Part shown: piece after piece, positions 824 through 12,529 of the stretch
Numbering within the stretch: the stretch's first letter is position 1
How the letters are laid out: each line of letters opens with the position of its first letter
Source of the DNA: an uncultured Clostridium sp.
Lineage (GTDB): Bacteria; Bacillota; Clostridia; Clostridiales; Clostridiaceae
Direction of reading: 5' to 3'
NCBI GenBank assembly: GCA_934746015.1
Contig: CAKVEW010000061.1
Location: forward strand, 1-12,877
DNA length: 12,877 bases
Translations under genes and position numbers: made by a program
The notes under the pieces: model-generated
Databases searched by the model: none
Told to the model about the DNA's origin: nothing
The model's input: the letters and a program-made list of their open reading frames with translations, nothing else

Positions 824-3802
824 TTATGAATTTATATCCTTCATTATTTCTTGAATTCTATGATTAATTAATAGGATTTTTTCTTCATCTACCTTACAAA
901 TCTTTCTATCATAAGTATATATTCCATTGGTTTCATCCTCTACATCACTTAATTGCGTGTAAATACAACCACTTAATCCACTTTTTATAGCTGGTATAAT
1001 CATTTTTTCATACATATCTACAATACTATCTGTTAGCTTTTCAGAACTCTCAAAAGCTCCATATCCATAATTATTATATTTACTATAAATATGTCCATTA
1101 ATAGGATAGGAATATCCACCGCATTCTGATACTATTAATGGTCTTTCTGTTTTTGGTAAATCCATTGTTTTAAAATAAATATGCAGGCTATCTACATCAC
1201 TCTTTTCATGAATAAACCATCCAGATGTAGAATCTATAAATCTAGTATTATCAATATCTTTAACAATTTCATAGATATTATCACTTTGAAATTGGCCCCA
1301 GCCCTCATTAAATATAGTATAGCCAACGATACATGGATGATTGTACAGATGATTTATTGTATCTCTTGTATGATTAATAAATATTTCCCTTTGAGTCTTA
1401 CTTCCTCTTCTTGTATCCTTTAATTTAAGCCTTCCCATAGTAGGAAGCGCTGTATCTCTAATAAAAGAATATGAACCATTATTCACCATATCTTGAATTA
1501 CTAACATACCATGTTTATCACAATAATAATAAAAGCATTCTGGTTCTACCTTAATGTGTTTTCGTAACATATTAAATCCTAAATTCTTCATTCTTAAAAT
1601 ATCCTCTTCAAATTCCTTTTCTCTTGAAGGAAGGAAGATTCCATCACAGAAATATCCTTGGTCTAACACCCCATGTAAAAATATAGGTTTGTCATTTAAA
1701 CAAATTCTTTCTATTCCATCTATTTTATTTATAGATATAGTACGTAAAGCAAAATATGATTCTACTTTATCTTCAGATGTACTAATATTAATTTTATAAA
1801 GATGTGGATTTTCAACTGTCCATAAAATAGGCTTATATTTTCTTCCATCTGGTAAGGTAATCTTATCTAAATCTATCCTAAACTTATCACCTTTTTCATA
1901 TCTTGTATAAATATATCCCTCCAGATTTATATCTATTCTATATTCTGTTGCATTTGTATCTATTTCACATTCTATTCCATTCATATCAGGAGTTATTTTA
2001 ATATTATTAATAAATACCTTAGGAATACTTTCTAGCCATACAGTTTGCCATATTCCACTTACAGGGGTATACCACATTCCTCCACGGTTTTTACATTGCT
2101 TTCCGTATGGATATTTCTTAGATAAATTATCAGTAACCTTTACCACTAACTTATTTTCCTTATCTGTAAATAATGCCTCTGTCACATCTACTGAAAAAGG
2201 TAAATATCCTCCTTCATGTATCATTAACTTCTTATTATTTACCCAAACCTCTGCAACTTGATCTACAGCACCAAAATGTAGAATTACTTTATCTTTTATA
2301 AAATTATTAGGTAAGTTAAAGTATTTTACATAAGTCAAATGCTTTCCTACAGTTTTTTTATAACCAGATAAATTAGATTCAGGTGGAAATGGAACAAATA
2401 TATCTTCGCCATTTAACTTCCACACTCCATTTAAACTAAAGTAAGAATCTCTTTTCATTTGTGGTCTTGGATACTCTGTCCAATCAATTTCTCCATCTGT
2501 AGTAAGATTCCAATGCTCTTCTCTTATCATTTTAAAAATTAAATATAAAATAAAAAGAAGAATTGCAGCTATTATAAATGCAGCAAAATATATTCTTCTA
2601 TCTGGAATAAAGGAAGTAGTCCCATCATTATTTAAAATTGTTTTTGCATTACTTAAAACTATCGCTCCAATTGTTGGTCCAATAATTCCAGGTATAAGAA
2701 CTTGTCCTAAAATACGTAATCCTTGAAATAATCCTGATTTATTTTGTGGAATATTATCTCTTATCATCGCTCCAAAGCATGCCATTCCTGTTAAATATCC
2801 TATCATCATAAATAAGGATCCAACAAATACCCAAAGAATACTTGTACTGAAAAATAGTATAGTATAACCTATCATAAGAATTAAAATACTTGGAACTACA
2901 GACATCTTAAAGCCAAGCATATCATATACCTTTCCATAAAAAGCAGTAGTAATAGCAGCAATTATAATTGCTGGAGCCATAATAATTACATAATTAGTTA
3001 TTCCTAAGGTCTTTTCATAATAAAGAATTAAATATGGCATAAAAATATTAATAGAAATCCCAAAAACAGAAAATGCACCAACTACTGCATATAAAAGTTT
3101 ATTATCTCTTATAACAGATATACGAAAACTATAAAGGACATTCACCCAATACTTATTTGTTTCAGATGTAGTTTTTGCATTATCTTCTATTAGCATAAAA
3201 CCTAGCACCCCACTAATAATAACAATTACACCTATTATTAAGAAAATAGTAGTCCAGCTAGATTGTAAATCTAAATTAAATACCATGAAGCCACCAAATA
3301 CTATTAAAATAGACGCTAGTGGCATCATAGAATTAATTCCCTCTATACTTCCCCTATTGCTCTCATTTCCACAATCAGTCATCCAAGCATTAAAACAAGC
3401 ATCATTTGCCGCTGAACCAAAGAAGGTCATGATACAATCTAATATTATAAATAATGATATTCCAAGAGATGTAGCAGCTGCAGTACTTCCTACAATTGGA
3501 GTTAAGATATCGATTCTTATAAGAGAAAATGAAAGAATTGAAATTCCCCACATTATATATCCAGCACAAATAAATATCTTTCTATTTCCCAGCTTATCTG
3601 ATAATGCTCCTATAAAAAGAGTTGTTAAAGTTGCTGCTACTGAACTAGCCCCAACCATTAATGAAATATCAGCTGCTGATGCATTAAATATTTTATAAAT
3701 AAATACGTTTAAGTACATATTCTCAACAACCCAAGCAATTTGACCTATAAGACCAAATATAACGAGGGTTATCCAAAACTTCTTTCCTAGTTTAGTTTTC
3801 AT
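824..3802 (-). CDS. MFS transporter fused to GH2 glycoside hydrolase
   Basis: A 992-residue protein. Residues 8-425 are a 12-helix MFS transporter, with the loop 2-3 signature GALSDKLGNRK (65-75) and a last helix near 404-424. A linker of about 20 residues leads to a complete GH2 enzyme. Its sugar-binding domain starts at EYPRPQMKRDSYFSLNG (443-459) and runs through GGMWYTPVSGIWQTVWLE (574-591). An Ig-like domain spans about 592-690 and the TIM barrel about 695-992. The barrel holds acid/base E833 (FNEGWGQF) and nucleophile E893 (VSECGGYS). MFS C-termini are cytoplasmic, so the hydrolase should act on freshly imported glycoside. The NxK motif typical of beta-glucuronidases is not seen; the equivalent stretch reads TNGIYTYDRK (958-967). 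A galactosidase-like or arabinosidase-like specificity is possible but unproven. ATG 3802 has a strong AGGAGGTGA site. Close GH2 relatives are normally separate proteins of about 580 residues. No stop or frameshift interrupts the junction. Confidence 0.88.
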   Translation of the reverse strand: MKTKLGKKFWITLVIFGLIGQIAWVVENMYLNVFIYKIFNASAADISLMVGASSVAATLTTLFIGALSDKLGNRKIFICAGYIMWGISILSFSLIRIDILTPIVGSTAAATSLGISLFIILDCIMTFFGSAANDACFNAWMTDCGNESNRGSIEGINSMMPLASILIVFGGFMVFNLDLQSSWTTIFLIIGVIVIISGVLGFMLIEDNAKTTSETNKYWVNVLYSFRISVIRDNKLLYAVVGAFSVFGISINIFMPYLILYYEKTLGITNYVIIMAPAIIIAAITTAFYGKVYDMLGFKMSVVPSILILMIGYTILFFSTSILWVFVGSLFMMIGYLTGMACFGAMIRDNIPQNKSGLFQGLRILGQVLIPGIIGPTIGAIVLSNAKTILNNDGTTSFIPDRRIYFAAFIIAAILLFILYLIFKMIREEHWNLTTDGEIDWTEYPRPQMKRDSYFSLNGVWKLNGEDIFVPFPPESNLSGYKKTVGKHLTYVKYFNLPNNFIKDKVILHFGAVDQVAEVWVNNKKLMIHEGGYLPFSVDVTEALFTDKENKLVVKVTDNLSKKYPYGKQCKNRGGMWYTPVSGIWQTVWLESIPKVFINNIKITPDMNGIECEIDTNATEYRIDINLEGYIYTRYEKGDKFRIDLDKITLPDGRKYKPILWTVENPHLYKINISTSEDKVESYFALRTISINKIDGIERICLNDKPIFLHGVLDQGYFCDGIFLPSREKEFEEDILRMKNLGFNMLRKHIKVEPECFYYYCDKHGMLVIQDMVNNGSYSFIRDTALPTMGRLKLKDTRRGSKTQREIFINHTRDTINHLYNHPCIVGYTIFNEGWGQFQSDNIYEIVKDIDNTRFIDSTSGWFIHEKSDVDSLHIYFKTMDLPKTERPLIVSECGGYSYPINGHIYSKYNNYGYGAFESSEKLTDSIVDMYEKMIIPAIKSGLSGCIYTQLSDVEDETNGIYTYDRKICKVDEEKILLINHRIQEIMKDINS

Positions 3803-3826
3803 TTAAAGTCACCTCCTAATAAAATT

Positions 3827-3965: not shown

Positions 3966-4286
3966 CTAAAAAGTTACTGTTTTATCAGCCCATTCAACCA
4001 TTTCTACACAATCAATCATTATAGACATTGGACATATATTAGTTTCCTTCATATTTCTAGATTTTAAACAAGTTCCACAGGCTAAAATTTCTCCTCCAAT
4101 TTCACTAAATTCCTTAAGTTGTGCTGCTACATTAAACTTTTCATGTGTAAGTGTCTCACATTCCACAGCTTCCCCCATTAAAAATACCTTCACTTCATGT
4201 CCCTTTTTCTTTGCAGTTACTGCAAATCTAAAAGCATTCCAAGCTTTCTCGAATTCCTTAGTTTCAATAATAACTCCAAGCTTCAT
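3966..4286 (-). CDS. DsrE/DsrF-like sulfur-relay protein
   Basis: A 106-residue cytoplasmic protein with a DsrE-like fold. It opens with strand KLGVIIET, then helix KAWNAFRFAVTAKKKGHEV (14-32), then strand VKVFLMGEAVEC (32-43), and has a conserved cysteine loop ILACGTCLKSR (67-77). C70 and C73 are candidate persulfide carriers; C43, C85 and C93 are further cysteines. In the DsrE and TusD families such a cysteine passes sulfane sulfur between partners. It starts 12 nt after the cysteine desulfurase, and its GGAGG site directly follows that gene's TAA, so the two are probably translationally coupled. The desulfurase is the obvious sulfur donor (inference). The final acceptor is not visible here. 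Confidence 0.78.
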   Translation of the reverse strand: MKLGVIIETKEFEKAWNAFRFAVTAKKKGHEVKVFLMGEAVECETLTHEKFNVAAQLKEFSEIGGEILACGTCLKSRNMKETNICPMSIMIDCVEMVEWADKTVTF

Positions 4287-4298
4287 TATTATTCCTCC

Positions 4299-5414
4299 TT
4301 AATAATTTAAATTTTTATTGATTTCATCAATAACAAAATCAATTTCATCTTTAGTTGTATATCTCCCAAGACTAAAACGTACAGCTCCGCGTCCAACCTC
4401 TTCAGAAACTCCCATTGCTTTTAACACAGGTGATATTGAAGTATTCCCTGAATGGCAAGCTGATCCTGTGGAAGCTAAAACATTATTTAACTTACCTAAT
4501 ACCTCATGTCCATTAAGTCCTAAAAAACTAATATTTAATGTGTTAGGAAGTTTATTTTCTGGATGACCATTTAGCTGTATTCTTTCACCAAATTTCTCTT
4601 TAAGCTGGCTATAAAAATAATCAGTTAATAATTTCACTTCATTATTTTTTAATTCATTCTTGGCGATTTCACATGCTTTTCCAAGTGCAACATCAAAAAT
4701 AATATTTTCAGTCCCCGCACGTCTTCCCTTCTCATGACCCGCACCATGAATTAGTGGCTCTATGTTAATACCTTTCTTCATGTATAACGCACCAATGCCC
4801 TTAGGTGCATATAGCTTGTGTCCTGCAATTGTTAGAAAATCAACTCCTAGTTTAGTAACATCAACAGGAACCTTACCTAATGATTGTGATACATCTGTGT
4901 GTAATATAACATCATGCTCTTTGCATATTTTAGAAATCTCTTCAATTGGTTGAAGTACACCAGTTTCATTATTAGAATGCATAATTGAAACAAGTATAGT
5001 TTTATCTGTAATTAAGCTCTCAAGTTCTGAAAGATTAACTATGCCATATTTATCAACTGTTAAATAACTTATTTCATATCCTAATTTTTCAAGAAAATGA
5101 CATGGTTCAAGCACTGCTGGATGCTCTACCTGTGAAGTAATAATATGATTTCCCTTATTTTTGAAAGCATGAGCCACTCCTTTAATAACCATATTATCTG
5201 ACTCGCTTCCCCCACTTGTGAAAATTATCTCTTCTGGTGAAGAGTTTATTAATTCTGCAACTTGCACTCTTGCCTTTTCAATAGCCCTTTTGGCAGTAAT
5301 TCCTAGCTCATGATTGCTAGATGGATTTCCATAGTTCCCATATATATATGGAATCATAGCCTCAGCAACTTCCTTATCTATTGGTGTTGTAGCATTGTAA
5401 TCTAAATAAATCAT
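4299..5414 (-). CDS. Cysteine desulfurase, NifS/IscS-like (class V aminotransferase)
   Basis: A 371-residue PLP enzyme that would convert L-cysteine to alanine and leave a persulfide on its active-site cysteine. It starts MIYLDYNATTP, typical of the NifS group. Visible landmarks, numbered from ATG 5414, are the cofactor-phosphate loop FTSGGSESDN (65-74), H97 in SQVEHP, D174 in HTDVSQ, the PLP lysine K200 in AGHKLYAPKG, and catalytic C320 in STGSACHSG. Length and order fit a complete enzyme. A longer frame opens at ATG 5441, but a GAAGGTGAG site lies inside it, 5 nt before ATG 5414, so the shorter start is preferred. The operon partner is a DsrE-like protein, not IscU, NifU or SufU. That suggests delivery to a sulfur relay (tRNA thiolation, selenium or cofactor sulfur) more than directly to an Fe-S scaffold, but this is inference. 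Confidence 0.92.
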   Translation of the reverse strand: MIYLDYNATTPIDKEVAEAMIPYIYGNYGNPSSNHELGITAKRAIEKARVQVAELINSSPEEIIFTSGGSESDNMVIKGVAHAFKNKGNHIITSQVEHPAVLEPCHFLEKLGYEISYLTVDKYGIVNLSELESLITDKTILVSIMHSNNETGVLQPIEEISKICKEHDVILHTDVSQSLGKVPVDVTKLGVDFLTIAGHKLYAPKGIGALYMKKGINIEPLIHGAGHEKGRRAGTENIIFDVALGKACEIAKNELKNNEVKLLTDYFYSQLKEKFGERIQLNGHPENKLPNTLNISFLGLNGHEVLGKLNNVLASTGSACHSGNTSISPVLKAMGVSEEVGRGAVRFSLGRYTTKDEIDFVIDEINKNLNY

Positions 5415-5417
5415 ATA

Positions 5418-5426
5418 CTCACCTTC
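5418..5426 (-). promoter_or_regulatory. Ribosome binding site fixing desulfurase start at 5414
   Basis: GAAGGTGAG precedes ATG 5414 with normal spacing. No comparable site precedes the upstream in-frame ATG at 5441, so the nine extra residues are probably not translated. Confidence 0.65.
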
Positions 5427-5459
5427 TCTATAAATTTTCATTTATTTTGCACTAATTTT

Positions 5460-5584: not shown

Positions 5585-6166
5585 TTATAAATTAATTGAA
5601 TTTGCTGATTTTAATCCATTTAGAATTATATTTTCTGTTAATATTGCCATATACTCTGGAGATTCCTTAAGTCCATTATTAAGCCAATAGTCTATTAATC
5701 CAATAGCACCATATAAAATAAATGAATAATATTTATCAAAAAGAGATTTATCATTTTTTTTAAAAATATTAGACCAATCACTATAACCTTTTTCATATAT
5801 TACAGATACTATTTTTTTTATAAAAACCATATCTCCTCTTTCACAAAGAACAACCATACAAAAGTCACTATTCTTTGCTATAAAAGTAAATATATCTTTT
5901 AATATAGGTTTTGTTTCAATTTTATCTGGAGAAATTTCATGGGATAATATCATATTTTGAAATTCTTCAAAGAGATCCTTCTCAATTTCGCTTAGCATAT
6001 GAAAAACATCTTTATAGTGCAGATAAAAAGTTCCCCTATTTATATCTGCTTCTTCACATAACTCTTTTACTGTAATAGAATTTATATTTTTATCCTTCAT
6101 AAGAGTTATTAAACTTTTCTTTAATACATCTCTTGTTTTTCTTATTCTTCTATCATTATTAACCAT
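5585..6166 (-). CDS. TetR/AcrR family regulator, divergent from yhgE-like gene
   Basis: A 193-residue DNA-binding repressor type. The N-terminal TetR domain (about 8-55) holds the helix-turn-helix ITVKELCEEADINRGTFYLH (31-50), a canonical TetR recognition region with FYLHYKD. The remaining helices (about 56-190) are a ligand/dimer domain that is not conserved enough to name an inducer. The gene is divergent from the YhgE/Pip-like gene, the arrangement known for TetR-type YhgD and YhgE in bacilli, so control of that gene is the natural inference. The start has a GAGGGGTG site. Its terminator is at 5511-5552. The likely operator is the inverted repeat at 6295-6323, with a matching half (GAACATTATT, 6183-6192) next to its own start that would permit autoregulation. 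Confidence 0.88.
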   Translation of the reverse strand: MVNNDRRIRKTRDVLKKSLITLMKDKNINSITVKELCEEADINRGTFYLHYKDVFHMLSEIEKDLFEEFQNMILSHEISPDKIETKPILKDIFTFIAKNSDFCMVVLCERGDMVFIKKIVSVIYEKGYSDWSNIFKKNDKSLFDKYYSFILYGAIGLIDYWLNNGLKESPEYMAILTENIILNGLKSANSINL

Positions 6167-6351: not shown

Positions 6352-8814
6352 ATGGATAACTTGAAACAAGACAAATCACATTTATTCAAAATTATCAAAT
6401 TTATAGCAGTTATAGCAGTAATATTAATTCCAACAATTTATACTACTGTTTTCTTAGGTTCAATGTGGGACCCTTACGGAAATGTGGATAATCTCCCTGT
6501 GGCTGTAGTGAATTTAGATAAACCCCGTGATTACAATGGTGAGGAATTAGCTGTTGGCGATGAACTAGTTAAAAATCTTAAAGAGAATGCTTCTCTTGAT
6601 TTTAATTTTGTGGATAAAGAGACAGCTCAGAGTGGATTAGATAATGGATCTTATTATATGATAATTACAATCCCTGAAAACTTCTCTTATAATGCTACAA
6701 CTATTTTAGATGATAATCCTACAAAAATGGAATTACAATATAAAACAAACCCTGGTAAAAACTATATTGCTTCTAAAATGAGTGAATCAGCAATTCAAAA
6801 GATTACAACATCTATACAAAATAGTGTTACTGAAGTTTATGCTAAATCTGTATTTGATCAATTCTCATCAATAGGGGATCAGCTATCTGATGCTGCTGAT
6901 GGTGCCTCTCAAATAAATGAAGGATTAGTATCATTAAAAGAAGGTTCAGATACTATAGGATCAAACTTAAAAGTTTTATATGATAGTAGCTTAACCTTCA
7001 CAGATGGAATAAATACATACGAAACAGGAATTAACGATTATTTATCCGCTGTAAATAAAATACAAAGTGGTTCTGAAACTTTAAATACAGGAATCAATAC
7101 ATTAAATGATAAATCTTCAACTCTTGCTGAAGGAGTTAACAGTATTAATGCTGGTGCTAGTGCTTTAAATTCTGGAGCATCAGATTTACAAAAAGGAAGT
7201 GAAAATCTTCTTGGTGGATTAAATCTTCTATCTTCTTCTATAAGTACTTCCGTTAATGATGAAAATAGTAAGAACATCAAGACTTTAACTACTTCTTTAG
7301 ATAGCCTAAATTCAGGTATTAATAATATTAATAATGCTATTCAAAGTAGTTCAAACGATAATTTAACTTCTAGTTTTAAAGCCTTGGGAACAGACTTAAC
7401 TAATGTAGGAACTTCAGCTCAAAAATCTTCAGCTTACATAAAAGAACTTAAAACAAACATTGATAAGACTAAAGAAGCTGATTGGTTCAAAGCCTTAGAT
7501 ACAAGTACTCAAGAAGAGATTATAAATAATTTATCTTCTCCTCTAAATAACTTAAGCAATGAATTAAATAATATAACAAAAGAAACTTCATCGGCCTCTA
7601 ATGATTTAAATTCAGCTGTAAATGAAGCATCTATTATTTCTGGCCAAGTAGAGCAAGTAAAAACATCCTTAGGAGCTATTGCTAGTAATTCAAATATACT
7701 TACTGAAAAGTCTAAAAGTACTATAACTAGCTTATATTCAGGGCTTGAAACTGTAGGTAATACTTTAGATTATAAAATAATACCTGGAGCTAAAACTATA
7801 AACTCTGGTATAGCTTCCTTTAAGAATGGTAGCGAAAGTCTATACAATGGAACATCTACTTTAAACTCTTCAGTCCCAACTTTAACAAGTGGAATAGGAG
7901 AAATTGCTGAAGGTTCAAATACCTTAACACAAGGATTAAATACATTATCAGAAAATAACGATTCATTAAAATCAGGAATTAGTACAATAAATTCAGCTTC
8001 TAAATCTATTTCTGACGGAGCCTCTAAGCTTTATGATGGTTCCCTTGAATTAAGTGATGGTGCTAACAAATTGAAAGATGGCTCAGAAACCTTAAAAGAC
8101 TCTCTTGCAGATGGTTCAGAAACTATTAAAAGCACTAAATTATCTGATCAATCAAAAGAAATGTTTGCAGCACCTGTAGAAAGTGTAGAATCAGTTAATT
8201 CATATATTGCTAATAATGGTAGTGCAATGTCAGCATATATGATGTGTGTAGGATTATGGGTAGGTTGCCTAGCTTTCTGCATACTATTCTCTACAGAAAG
8301 AGATCTTAATAATGGAAAAGAAAATCCAAAAGAATTTTGGCCTAAGAAAGTATTAAAACTTTTATCCATAGCAATTATTCAAGCTGTAGTTATGGTTAGT
8401 GCACTTATGCTAATTAATGGACTTGACCCAGCTTACCTAGGTAGAACTTATTTAGTTGCTATAACTGCTTCAATATCATTTATGGCTATTGTTTACTTAA
8501 TGAATCTACTTTTAGGAAAAGTAGGAAGCTTTATTTTATTAATATTTATGATTTTACAATTAAGTGGTTCTGCAGGAACTTATCCAATAGACCTTTCAGA
8601 TAGCTTCTTCAAAGCTATTCATAACTATATGCCATTTACCTATGCTGTAGATGGATTTAGAAATGGGATATCTACTGGATTATCAATAGTTCCTCAAATA
8701 ACTGTTCTTTTAGTACTAGGTATTGTTTGTTCAATACTTTCTGTAATTGTCGTTATTAAGAAAAATGAAAGCACTAGAACAAGCCTACCAGAATTACTAG
8801 AAAAGGCTATATAA
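6352..8814 (+). CDS. yhgE: YhgE/Pip family membrane protein
   Basis: An 820-residue membrane protein. A first transmembrane helix (about 12-34) is followed by the family hallmark GSMWDPYGNVDNLPVAVVNLDK. A large extracytoplasmic region of about 590 residues follows, rich in Ser, Asn and Gly, with many imperfect 10-14 residue repeats of the type LxxGxxxLxxG (for example INEGLVSLKEGSDT and DGANKLKDGSETLKD), expected to form long helical or coiled structure. The C-terminal ABC-2-like domain has about five helices (near 626-647, 667-688, 700-722, 724-742 and 780-803). Lactococcal Pip is a phage c2 receptor; the bacillus homologue is YhgE. The physiological role of the family, export or envelope function, is unsettled. 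The start has an AGGAAGGTGAT site. It is controlled most likely by the divergent TetR gene and ends at the 8837-8882 terminator as a single-gene unit. The symbol is by family resemblance. Confidence 0.88.
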   Translation: MDNLKQDKSHLFKIIKFIAVIAVILIPTIYTTVFLGSMWDPYGNVDNLPVAVVNLDKPRDYNGEELAVGDELVKNLKENASLDFNFVDKETAQSGLDNGSYYMIITIPENFSYNATTILDDNPTKMELQYKTNPGKNYIASKMSESAIQKITTSIQNSVTEVYAKSVFDQFSSIGDQLSDAADGASQINEGLVSLKEGSDTIGSNLKVLYDSSLTFTDGINTYETGINDYLSAVNKIQSGSETLNTGINTLNDKSSTLAEGVNSINAGASALNSGASDLQKGSENLLGGLNLLSSSISTSVNDENSKNIKTLTTSLDSLNSGINNINNAIQSSSNDNLTSSFKALGTDLTNVGTSAQKSSAYIKELKTNIDKTKEADWFKALDTSTQEEIINNLSSPLNNLSNELNNITKETSSASNDLNSAVNEASIISGQVEQVKTSLGAIASNSNILTEKSKSTITSLYSGLETVGNTLDYKIIPGAKTINSGIASFKNGSESLYNGTSTLNSSVPTLTSGIGEIAEGSNTLTQGLNTLSENNDSLKSGISTINSASKSISDGASKLYDGSLELSDGANKLKDGSETLKDSLADGSETIKSTKLSDQSKEMFAAPVESVESVNSYIANNGSAMSAYMMCVGLWVGCLAFCILFSTERDLNNGKENPKEFWPKKVLKLLSIAIIQAVVMVSALMLINGLDPAYLGRTYLVAITASISFMAIVYLMNLLLGKVGSFILLIFMILQLSGSAGTYPIDLSDSFFKAIHNYMPFTYAVDGFRNGISTGLSIVPQITVLLVLGIVCSILSVIVVIKKNESTRTSLPELLEKAI

Positions 8815-8836
8815 AAATCTTAACAAATAAAATTAT

Positions 8837-8882
8837 AAAACCCTATAGAGTAGAATTTATAAAATCTACCCTATGGGGTTTT
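8837..8882. terminator. Shared terminator between yhgE-like and MarR genes
   Basis: An 18-bp stem (8837-8854 with 8865-8882) contains one G-T pair and one A-C mismatch, with a 10-nt loop. AAAA on the left arm and TTTT on the right make it usable in both directions, which suits two convergent genes. Confidence 0.8.
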
Positions 8883-8956
8883 CCATTTAACTCTTATTTA
8901 TATAATTAGATTGGTTTTAAAATCATATAATTTATATATTAAAATAAATACTTTTA

Positions 8957-9373
8957 TTATTCAATACTCCAACTTCTATTTAATAACTCCTTAAGTATTT
9001 CTACTTTTTCTTTTCCTAGAACATCTGATATTTCTTGCTCTAGTTGTTCTTTTAACTTTTTACTCTTTTTACAATAATCCTTTCCCTTACTTGTAAGCTC
9101 TGTATACTTATTATTACTTTCATTTATTACAAATTTTAAGTATCCTCTTGCTTCTAATTTTTTAGCACATTTGAACATAGCTTGACGAGATACATTAGCC
9201 TGCCTAGCTACTTCAGCAATAGATATTTTCCCCATATTAATTTTAGCTAGAAGAAGTGCTTCTGTATGGGATATATCCTCTTCCTCACTCTCTGCCCATC
9301 GCTCTTCAACTTCACGTCTAAGGATGATATGTTTTTCACTTATTAAATCAATTATATTTAAATCTCTCTTCAT
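8957..9373 (-). CDS. MarR family regulator, divergent from DUF2798 gene
   Basis: A 138-residue winged-helix regulator. The helix-turn-helix is at about 50-82 (ISIAEVARQANVSRQAMFKC, then KKLEARGYLK), followed by the wing (about 83-95) and a long C-terminal dimerisation helix (about 96-136). This matches the MarR fold in length and order. Two cysteines (C69, C101) are present; C69 lies in the recognition helix region, so redox sensing is conceivable but unsupported. The start has an AAGGTGAG site. The gene is divergent from the DUF2798 protein gene, and two near-identical palindromes in the 169-bp gap flank that gene's promoter. It is therefore likely the repressor of that gene and possibly of itself. 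The ligand is unknown. Confidence 0.85.
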   Translation of the reverse strand: MKRDLNIIDLISEKHIILRREVEERWAESEEEDISHTEALLLAKINMGKISIAEVARQANVSRQAMFKCAKKLEARGYLKFVINESNNKYTELTSKGKDYCKKSKKLKEQLEQEISDVLGKEKVEILKELLNRSWSIE

Positions 9374-10311: not shown

Positions 10312-12231
10312 TTATTTTACTTCATCGTCTATAATATCTATTAACTCTTCTTTAATACATAAGTCATCATTAATTTTAATAATTACAATAACAATCAATT
10401 TCAAAATCCTATAATAGTCTGTTTCATATTCTTTCTCATCATTACTATTAGTACCGTGTAAATATTTATTTCTAATATCATACCCATTTGTAAACTTTGT
10501 TTTGTTAAGATAGTAATCAAAATAGTCTTGTTCATTTCTTGAAAACAAAGTGCTTTCAAAACAAACGTGATTTTTCTCTCCTAATTTTTTAATCACTTTT
10601 TTTATTTCTTCAGGATAATGCCAATAACTTAGCACATCATTATAATATAATTCTTTAAGAACATAGATCAAATTTAAATCTATAAACTTTAGATAACCAC
10701 TTACATCTTCAACAATTATATTATTATCAAATAACCACTGCATTTTTTGTAATTGATATTCCTTAAAATCACTTCTTAATACTTTTTCCTTAATGATCAA
10801 ATTTAAGAAATTCTTATATACACCTTTGCTTGGCATATAAAATATACTGCTTTGATCTGAAAATAAAAGAAATGAAACTGTTTTATACCAATCACTTAAA
10901 GGATAAACATATTTTTTCTGATTAAAAGATTTTATATACTTATTTTTAACGCTAGACGATGACATTTGTATCAATTCTTGATCAATTTCGCCTTCTTCAA
11001 TTAGTAAATTGTATTGCTTAAATATTCTGTCTATTTCCGGAAGAATGCTTCTACACTTTTCAAAATATGAAGTATTTTCTGATAGTAATTTAACAATAAA
11101 CTCATTAATATTAAATTCTTCTTTAATATACTCATTGAAAAACCATTCCATCATGCTCTCTATTCTTACACCAAAAATATTTAGTCCGTTTGCATAACTA
11201 AAAATCTCAGCATCAGAAATCATTTCTTTTGTTGTAAAGGCAAATGATCTATTGAATAGATGAGGTCCTGAATCTCTAAGTACATGCTCTAATGTACTTA
11301 CTTCATTTTGCTTTGAATCAAATTCTAAGCAAAACTTTTCATCAACAAAATTAAATATGTAAATAAAGTTATTCCATAATGTCGGATAGTCTAGATTATC
11401 TTCTAACCACTTACGACTTACCTTTATATCTACCATTCTATTATCCATACCTACCAATACAGCTTCCTCTTGATCTATCGGATAGGATATGGAGACACCT
11501 GATTTAAATCCTGATCCATTACTAAAGATTTTCTCTTCCTCTTCCTTTATTTTTCTTTTTGCATGTAATTTAATTTTATCTGGTATATTCAAACCTGTAC
11601 CTGTTGGAAAAGTTACAACTTTTCTTAAAACATTTATATTAGCCTCATTAGAAGCAATATACTCATCCATAAGCTTTAGTATTTCTTCAACAGTTAAAGA
11701 TTCTAGTAAATATAGCTCATTTTCCTTTAAATACTTAGAAATAATAGTTTCTACATTTTTAAAATCACTTAATAAATTTTCTTTTATAGCATTATCAAAA
11801 TATTCAACTAATCTTCTGAACTTTAAAATAATATAAACATGCATATGTTCTTTATTCATTAACTCTTTAAAATCACTCTCCGAAATCTCATTATAAATAT
11901 GGTACTTTTCAATAATCTCAAAGAAATCTTCTGTTAATGTAAAATCAATTTCATCATAAGCATTAATGAAATTTATTTTATTCTTACCAATAAAGATTCC
12001 TATTTTCTGTTTTATTTTTCGTTCATACATTTTTATATCTATTCTAGTCTGTTGTTGAATATAATTAGCAAATCCTTCTATGGAAATATATTTCAATGCA
12101 TTATAAAAATTTATAACCTCATTACAATCCAATTCTTCTTCAAGAGCATTGGTATTAATTCTTTCAATTATATTGCCTATTTCATAACCACATGCCATAT
12201 CAAACTCTGAATAAAACCTAATTGTCTCCAT
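10312..12231 (-). CDS. DUF4209-like protein with RNxxxHG motif
   Basis: A 639-residue soluble protein with no signal peptide or clear membrane helix. The N-terminal 500 or so residues are largely helical and rich in Lys, Glu, Asn and Ile, with a charged stretch HAKRKIKEEEEK near residue 220; no enzyme motif is recognised there. Near the C-terminus lies FTNGYDIRNKYLHGTN, with R587 and H592. This matches the conserved RNxxxHG of DUF4209, and the R-x4-H spacing also fits HEPN-type RNases. The human DUF4209 protein ERMARD is linked by name to RNA degradation, but activity for bacterial members is not established. A longer frame starts at TTG 12252, but the GGGGAGGAG site lies inside it, so ATG 12231 is used. 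It is a lone gene between a MarR unit and an IS end, which would fit an accessory or defence gene (inference). Confidence 0.6.
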   Translation of the reverse strand: METIRFYSEFDMACGYEIGNIIERINTNALEEELDCNEVINFYNALKYISIEGFANYIQQQTRIDIKMYERKIKQKIGIFIGKNKINFINAYDEIDFTLTEDFFEIIEKYHIYNEISESDFKELMNKEHMHVYIILKFRRLVEYFDNAIKENLLSDFKNVETIISKYLKENELYLLESLTVEEILKLMDEYIASNEANINVLRKVVTFPTGTGLNIPDKIKLHAKRKIKEEEEKIFSNGSGFKSGVSISYPIDQEEAVLVGMDNRMVDIKVSRKWLEDNLDYPTLWNNFIYIFNFVDEKFCLEFDSKQNEVSTLEHVLRDSGPHLFNRSFAFTTKEMISDAEIFSYANGLNIFGVRIESMMEWFFNEYIKEEFNINEFIVKLLSENTSYFEKCRSILPEIDRIFKQYNLLIEEGEIDQELIQMSSSSVKNKYIKSFNQKKYVYPLSDWYKTVSFLLFSDQSSIFYMPSKGVYKNFLNLIIKEKVLRSDFKEYQLQKMQWLFDNNIIVEDVSGYLKFIDLNLIYVLKELYYNDVLSYWHYPEEIKKVIKKLGEKNHVCFESTLFSRNEQDYFDYYLNKTKFTNGYDIRNKYLHGTNSNDEKEYETDYYRILKLIVIVIIKINDDLCIKEELIDIIDDEVK

Positions 12232-12235
12232 AAAA

Positions 12236-12245
12236 TCTCCTCCCC
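12236..12245 (-). promoter_or_regulatory. Ribosome binding site fixing the DUF4209-like start
   Basis: GGGGAGGAGA precedes ATG 12231, with GGAGG 7 nt away. It removes the seven N-terminal residues (from TTG 12252) of the longer frame. Confidence 0.8.
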
Positions 12246-12529
12246 ACACCAATAACTTTTTCTTTCTTTAAATATAGCTTATAATATAAATAATTTTGTT
12301 TATACTTAAATAATTTATCATCTTAATATATTGTTTAGTTTACTATTCTTTCAAATTAACTTAAAACATCTTACTAATCTACTCATATATATTATAATTG
12401 TAGCATGAATTATTTAATTTTTAACATATTCTCTAAGTTTATCCAATTTAATTCTATTGTAAATATCACATATATTAATTATTAAAAATTTCTTTTATTA
12501 AAAGTTGAAACCATATTTTTCGTATATAT
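12246..12529. other. Very AT-rich gene-free stretch
   Basis: The promoter of the DUF4209-like gene should lie here, but no paired -35/-10 is convincing; TATAAT-like words are common by composition. The longest protein-like trace is a stop-to-stop frame of about 24 codons ending at 12414 on the minus strand (ending DKLREYVKN), with no start codon or ribosome site. It could be a decayed gene end or chance. Confidence 0.45.

Follow-up and report, generated by a model that had tools for sequence, protein, structure and literature searches.

An MFS carrier and a GH2 enzyme are joined in one polypeptide encoded in the window, the whole stretch of 12,877 nucleotides that was analysed, and this transporter-enzyme fusion from a gut bacterium is real, has intact catalytic residues and also occurs in gut bacteria related to it. 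In our best reading, to which we give a probability of about 0.6, it would be a one-gene import-and-cleave module for a small furanoside, with the enzyme tethered to its carrier. The gene (824..3802, minus strand, as are all its parts) is a single uninterrupted open reading frame of 992 amino acids from ATG to stop, and a Shine-Dalgarno-like AGGAGGTGA (3809..3817, minus strand) lies six bases 5' of the ATG. The carrier, with 12 helices, occupies residues 7-428 (2519..3784) as judged from Pfam MFS_1 and structure models; the MFS_1 match itself (residues 28-376) scored 122.1 bits against a cut-off of 33.4, which places this half in the MFS. It is followed by a linker of residues 429-443 (2474..2518), or 19 residues when counted from the motif at the end of TM12 to YPRP, and by the enzyme at residues 444-990 (833..2473), which consists of sugar-binding, Ig-like and TIM-barrel domains. 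The Pfam matches in this part, Glyco_hydro_2_N (481-594), Glyco_hydro_2 (596-687) and Glyco_hydro_2_C (698-877), all exceeded their cut-offs. The acid/base residue E833 (codon 1304..1306) stands within FNEGW and corresponds to E464 of ORF1110, and the nucleophile E893 (codon 1124..1126) stands within VSECGG and corresponds to E530. AlphaFold2, run with 108 fused sequences, predicted the GH2 domains behind 12 helices of membrane length, with a mean pLDDT of 84.4 and a pTM of 0.79, the latter not being taken as evidence for a fixed MFS/GH2 interface. The sequence-only reading had described a 12-helix carrier running without a stop into a complete GH2 enzyme through a linker of about 20 residues, and this description was borne out in each part.

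A protein search covering 5.8 billion proteins gave 8000 scored candidates, all at E values up to 0.001, and the best 120 of these 8000 matches were all 981-1028 amino acids long and carried both MFS and GH2 Pfam domains. Three of these 120 had a source name, MFS transporter of Roseburia sp. or Lachnospiraceae. The database copy P0002, which lies on a 36-kb contig, is 100% identical and may be the window's own source, was not counted as independent. When 84,980 species, each represented by one genome, were scanned for sequence patterns, 42 loci emerged, a lower bound because exact short patterns were used. By blastp of the locus ORFs, the two halves are fused in one ORF in 24 of the 42 (two of these, L016 and L019, are cut by contig ends), while three loci (L031, L032, L037) hold adjacent split MFS/GH2 pairs, ten hold the GH2 without this MFS and three the MFS without this GH2. 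One further locus, L033 (same bin as L019), holds an MFS piece truncated where its contig ends, and another, L042, is fragmented: at 8037-9324 it holds a fusion relative only in fragments (MFS residues 13-161, then GH2 pieces), either a decayed gene or an assembly error. The split relatives agree with the earlier expectation that carriers and GH2 enzymes usually are separate neighbouring genes. According to record names, the fused loci belong mostly to Lachnospiraceae; the others are L001 from a Clostridium, L009 and L012 from Erysipelotrichales, L014 from a member of the Oscillospiraceae and L005 from a bacterium whose record names no family.

The fusion is rare among sampled genomes. It was found in one of 225 genomes from the order of G001 (seed included; 0 of 224 without it), and from its rarity in that order we infer that the window copy was gained sideways; the G+C content of the fusion gene, 0.28-0.30, matches that of the window. 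The samples from the order and the phylum of G002 gave two of 392 (1/391 without the seed) and one of 398 (0/397), respectively, and split forms are undercounted in all these samples, as scoring in each genome was limited to the two or three best candidates. How widespread the fusion is, which the sequence-only reading had left open, is hence answered in part: more than half of the loci found are fused and mostly from Lachnospiraceae, yet few genomes carry the fusion when sampling is even. One match in the samples, in G134, seemed to run from MFS into GH2 and was rejected, since a separate GH2 gene lies there behind two permease-like ORFs (ABC type by eye). In G127, G130, G131 and G205, the GH2 matches belong to open frames 1074-1541 residues long in which this MFS has no match, and a group III-like GH2 appears to be joined to other parts. 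Among viral contigs, 37 stretches from one scan contained no relative of the fusion, and none of 316 matching plasmid records covered 80% of the query, the best ten of the 316 covering the GH2 half only.

The GH2 half bears the marks of the furanosidase group III of GH2 (CAZy GH2_18/GH2_19), the known members of which are beta-D-galactofuranosidases and alpha-L-arabinofuranosidases. Its best solved relatives by sequence were 7sf2, 9j6n, 9j6m and 7xyr with 349, 258, 256 and 188 bits, the next structure scoring 75, and a fold search likewise put these solved relatives closest. 9j6n and 9j6m are the beta-D-galactofuranosidase ORF1110 from Streptomyces; 7sf2, the closest structure, is titled beta-galactosidase. 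Group III is marked by replacement of the loop 8 Trp of the -1 subsite by Thr, and T949, which aligns with the YT of 9j6n and 7sf2, is this Thr and is invariant in 108 of 108 rows, as are the Glu nucleophile E893 and the NE acid/base motif N832-E833. The protein shares with ORF1110 sequence, fold, the catalytic pair and the Trp-to-Thr marker, as well as seven of the eight key residues whose alanine mutants keep at most 15.5% activity (D558, D678, E753, D771, E833, E893 and E957, each in 108/108 rows). The eighth, D500 (9.8% activity as alanine mutant), lies in a stretch absent from the window protein, and D508 of ORF1110 (33.5%) is replaced by S872. The window protein differs from group III enzymes such as ORF1110 in that the enzyme here forms the predicted cytoplasmic tail of a carrier. 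A generic LacZ or glucuronidase identity was ruled out, as the scores fell far below the curated cut-offs: the LacZ-type beta-galactosidase model NF052611 gave 100.8 bits against 999 and the beta-glucuronidase model NF007538 gave 105.9 bits against 544. The NxK motif of beta-glucuronidase (loop 8) was not seen by eye in residues 943-975.

Modelled alone, the MFS half showed 12 helices in an MFS fold with a mean pLDDT of 88.2. When 108 fused rows and 69 standalone relatives were aligned with the window protein, E27, N28, D122, D134 and R150 were invariant or nearly so, and the retention of this polar core speaks against a role of the MFS half as a mere anchor. The Pfam model of GPH-type sugar symporters, MFS_2 (PF13347), reached 18.8 bits in the window protein, below its cut-off of 27; some relatives carry MFS_2 in precomputed Pfam lists. 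A sequence search with a standalone MFS relative found no solved carrier, and the fold matches of the MFS half spread over many MFS families including drug exporters, with VMAT2, NorA, sialin, hexose carriers and, in one search, MelB close together and no single family standing out. The proposed importer role rests for this reason on the enzyme partner. With respect to sidedness, the loops that are cytoplasmic by MFS convention held more Lys and Arg than the other loops in all 108 rows (20 versus 6 in the window protein), which supports the earlier claim that the enzyme faces the cytoplasm. The GH2 half thus is probably on the cytoplasmic side, and an extracellular enzyme was rejected on this charge placement.

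Between the two halves, the stretch corresponding to residues 424 to 444 of the window protein measured 21 to 55 residues across 108 rows. From the TM12 motif to YPRP, the distance ranged from 19 (L001) to 113 residues (L035) in the 21 of 24 fused loci in which the search worked; the motif was missing in L002, L006 and L009, while L019 gave two readings and L001 also one false longer reading. This range argues for a tether and not for a rigid channel. Three loci from G+C-rich genomes, L029, L030 and L035, combine linkers of 108-113 residues with an extra GH2 insert before the TIM barrel. Both halves are under purifying selection and kept working, as dN/dS values (Nei-Gojobori, three pairs) lay between 0.13 and 0.21: 0.21 for MFS and 0.13 for GH2 between the window and L001, 0.18 and 0.21 for L030-L029, and 0.15 and 0.21 for L007-L036, domain borders being approximate in the latter two pairs.

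For phylogenetic analysis, the partial loci L016, L019, L033 and L042, the duplicates L043-L049 and the second GH2 genes of L021 and L022 were left out, and nine of 120 listed standalone MFS proteins and 12 of 120 listed fused proteins were added by choice. The MFS tree had 54 rows after the long branches L053 and L056 were dropped from the 56 of the quick tree. It placed 36 fused rows together with L057 on one side of a branch whose support (81/94) is not strong, and a clade of the fused rows without L057 was not rejected (p-AU 0.07). The standalone MFS gene of L057 (1411-2784) within this clade ends just past TM12 and, by eye, lies near an AraC-regulator-like ORF and the start of another GH2-like ORF. 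In the GH2 tree, with 61 rows after five long-branch rows were dropped from 66, a clade of fused rows alone was rejected (p-AU 1.6e-81), eight changes of state were required, and the fused rows plus 12 standalone GH2 rows fell on one side of a branch with a support of 99.7, a grouping that was named after the tree had been seen. By eye, seven of the 12 nested standalone GH2 proteins (L020, L023, L024, L025, L026, L027, L028) keep a linker-like start and those of L021, L022, L058 and L060 do not; the twelfth protein is that of L034. The GH2 gene at 7821-9965 of L024 begins, by eye, with a stub of the MFS start followed by the linker from behind TM12, as would be left by an in-frame loss of the carrier; an ORF nearby (L024:1-2016) has tandem ENTGSV-type repeats near its N-terminus.

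In split pairs with the MFS gene first, the gaps are 13, 11 and 13 bp in L031, L032 and L037, L061 has a 4-bp overlap and the ORFs of L052 overlap; in L053 and L056 the GH2 gene precedes the MFS gene. The pairs of L031, L032, L037 and L061 resemble the fusion in that homologues of its two halves adjoin each other in the same order, but they are two polypeptides and fall outside the fused clade in both trees. The plainest history suggested by these trees and gene orders would be that an MFS gene and the GH2 gene next behind it fused once and that the MFS half was repeatedly lost thereafter. The standalone GH2 genes inside the fused clade indicate that the fusion is dispensable.

No shared glycan cluster was found among 20 neighbours scanned at 14 of the 24 fused loci, the genes being assorted, nor was a conserved one found among ten neighbours of seven GH2-only loci. 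Sugar-related genes stood next to the fusion in L012 (alpha-amylase), L018 (GH3), L002 (a further GH2) and L009 (ABC ATPase), and the only neighbour types met twice were MatE (L003, L017) and HAD (L018, L038). A Pfam scan of eight other ORFs in the window likewise revealed no sugar gene beside the fusion. Given these assorted neighbours and the absence of a sugar gene alongside, the fusion can act as a single-gene trait.

In the favoured import-and-cleave module, the MFS half would import, probably in symport with a cation, a small glycoside that ends in a furanose; beta-D-galactofuranose and alpha-L-arabinofuranose are the most likely candidates for this sugar. The GH2 half, tethered at the cytoplasmic end of TM12, would then cleave the glycoside at the inner membrane face by a retaining two-glutamate mechanism. 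The tether would ensure a 1:1 supply of carrier and enzyme activities and may hold the glycoside concentration low at the carrier exit, so that uptake is favoured. It would form no rigid channel, and the module, having arisen by fusion of neighbours, would work outside an operon. The earlier suggestion that import and hydrolysis are physically coupled hence stands as far as a tether is concerned; the variable linkers and the nested standalone GH2 genes make it unlikely that the module depends on a rigid hand-over. The same two observations, along with the lack of a conserved neighbourhood in the scanned genes, would suit a possible though less favoured explanation, namely that the fusion does no more than lock in co-expression at equal amounts and allow transfer of the trait as a single gene, without any gain in flux from nearness. 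Against this stands the finding that 24 of 42 loci still have the halves joined, even where identity has fallen to 49-57%; a neutral accident would hardly have lasted so long. It is improbable in our view that the two halves are one machine in which the tethered GH2, by hydrolysing the glycoside, accelerates or gates the transport cycle, i.e. a vectorial glycosidase whose cleavage at the exit mouth drives uptake. If true, this would be a way of taking up sugar distinct from plain symport, ABC and PTS systems, one that a gut lineage has kept and repeatedly shed.

The module could also serve a different glycoside, for instance an aryl glycoside or a beta-galactopyranoside. The title of 7sf2 and the loss of D508 and D500 of ORF1110 point that way, but the group III Thr, the seven conserved key residues and the low scores of the LacZ and glucuronidase models weigh against it, and we hold this to be possible but less likely than a furanoside. 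A membrane anchor or sensor without transport would be in keeping with fold matches that single out no MFS family; it is rendered very unlikely by the polar core residues, which are conserved just as they are in standalone carriers, and by dN/dS values of 0.15-0.21 across the MFS half. Since split neighbours exist in relatives, one might finally suspect that an error in sequencing or assembly has merged two genes. The 24 fused loci, the best 120 of 8000 matches and independent fused relatives such as L001 at 87% identity rule out such an artefact, the probability of which we regard as negligible.

LplT-Aas fusions likewise join an MFS carrier to a cytoplasmic enzyme, an acyltransferase, that acts on the cargo, but they differ from the MFS-GH2 protein in their lipid cargo and unrelated enzyme. 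Transporter-enzyme fusions are already known, an example being MFS-bTGT (PMC11130926). In the Tsukamurella protein Tpau_0550, named in that paper as a candidate from fusion analysis, an MFS carrier and an enzyme presumed to use its cargo form one polypeptide as here; the enzyme is a tRNA-modifying one and the bacteria are different. Among the open-licence PMC papers found by our searches, no title or abstract opening described an MFS-GH2 fusion. The main text of the GH2 subfamily paper PMC12243196 contains neither 'MFS' nor 'transporter', and the portion on secretion states that transmembrane proteins were filtered out of that analysis. Galactofuranose is present in microbial and fungal glycans and absent from mammals, as is also stated in the abstract of PMC11084152. 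Little was found on the uptake of galactofuranose residues by Gram-positive gut bacteria, and a gene that alone provides both import and cleavage of such a glycoside would make a compact and portable trait. The relatives, some fused, some split and some secondarily unfused, provide a natural series in which the effect of tethering an enzyme to a carrier could be studied.

Elsewhere in the window, a DsrE-like protein (3966-4286) and a class-V aminotransferase (4299-5441), both on the minus strand, are encoded upstream of the fusion, and in L001 two ORFs of like size (106 and 371 amino acids) precede the fused gene in the same order. A 646-amino-acid ORF at 10312-12252 (minus strand) had no Pfam match at E 0.001. 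The 820-amino-acid protein encoded at 6352-8814 (plus strand) has ABC2_membrane_3 and DUF3533 matches near its N-terminus and a long repetitive middle, and we take it to resemble YhgE/Pip proteins; a TetR-type regulator is encoded beside it (5585-6166, minus strand).
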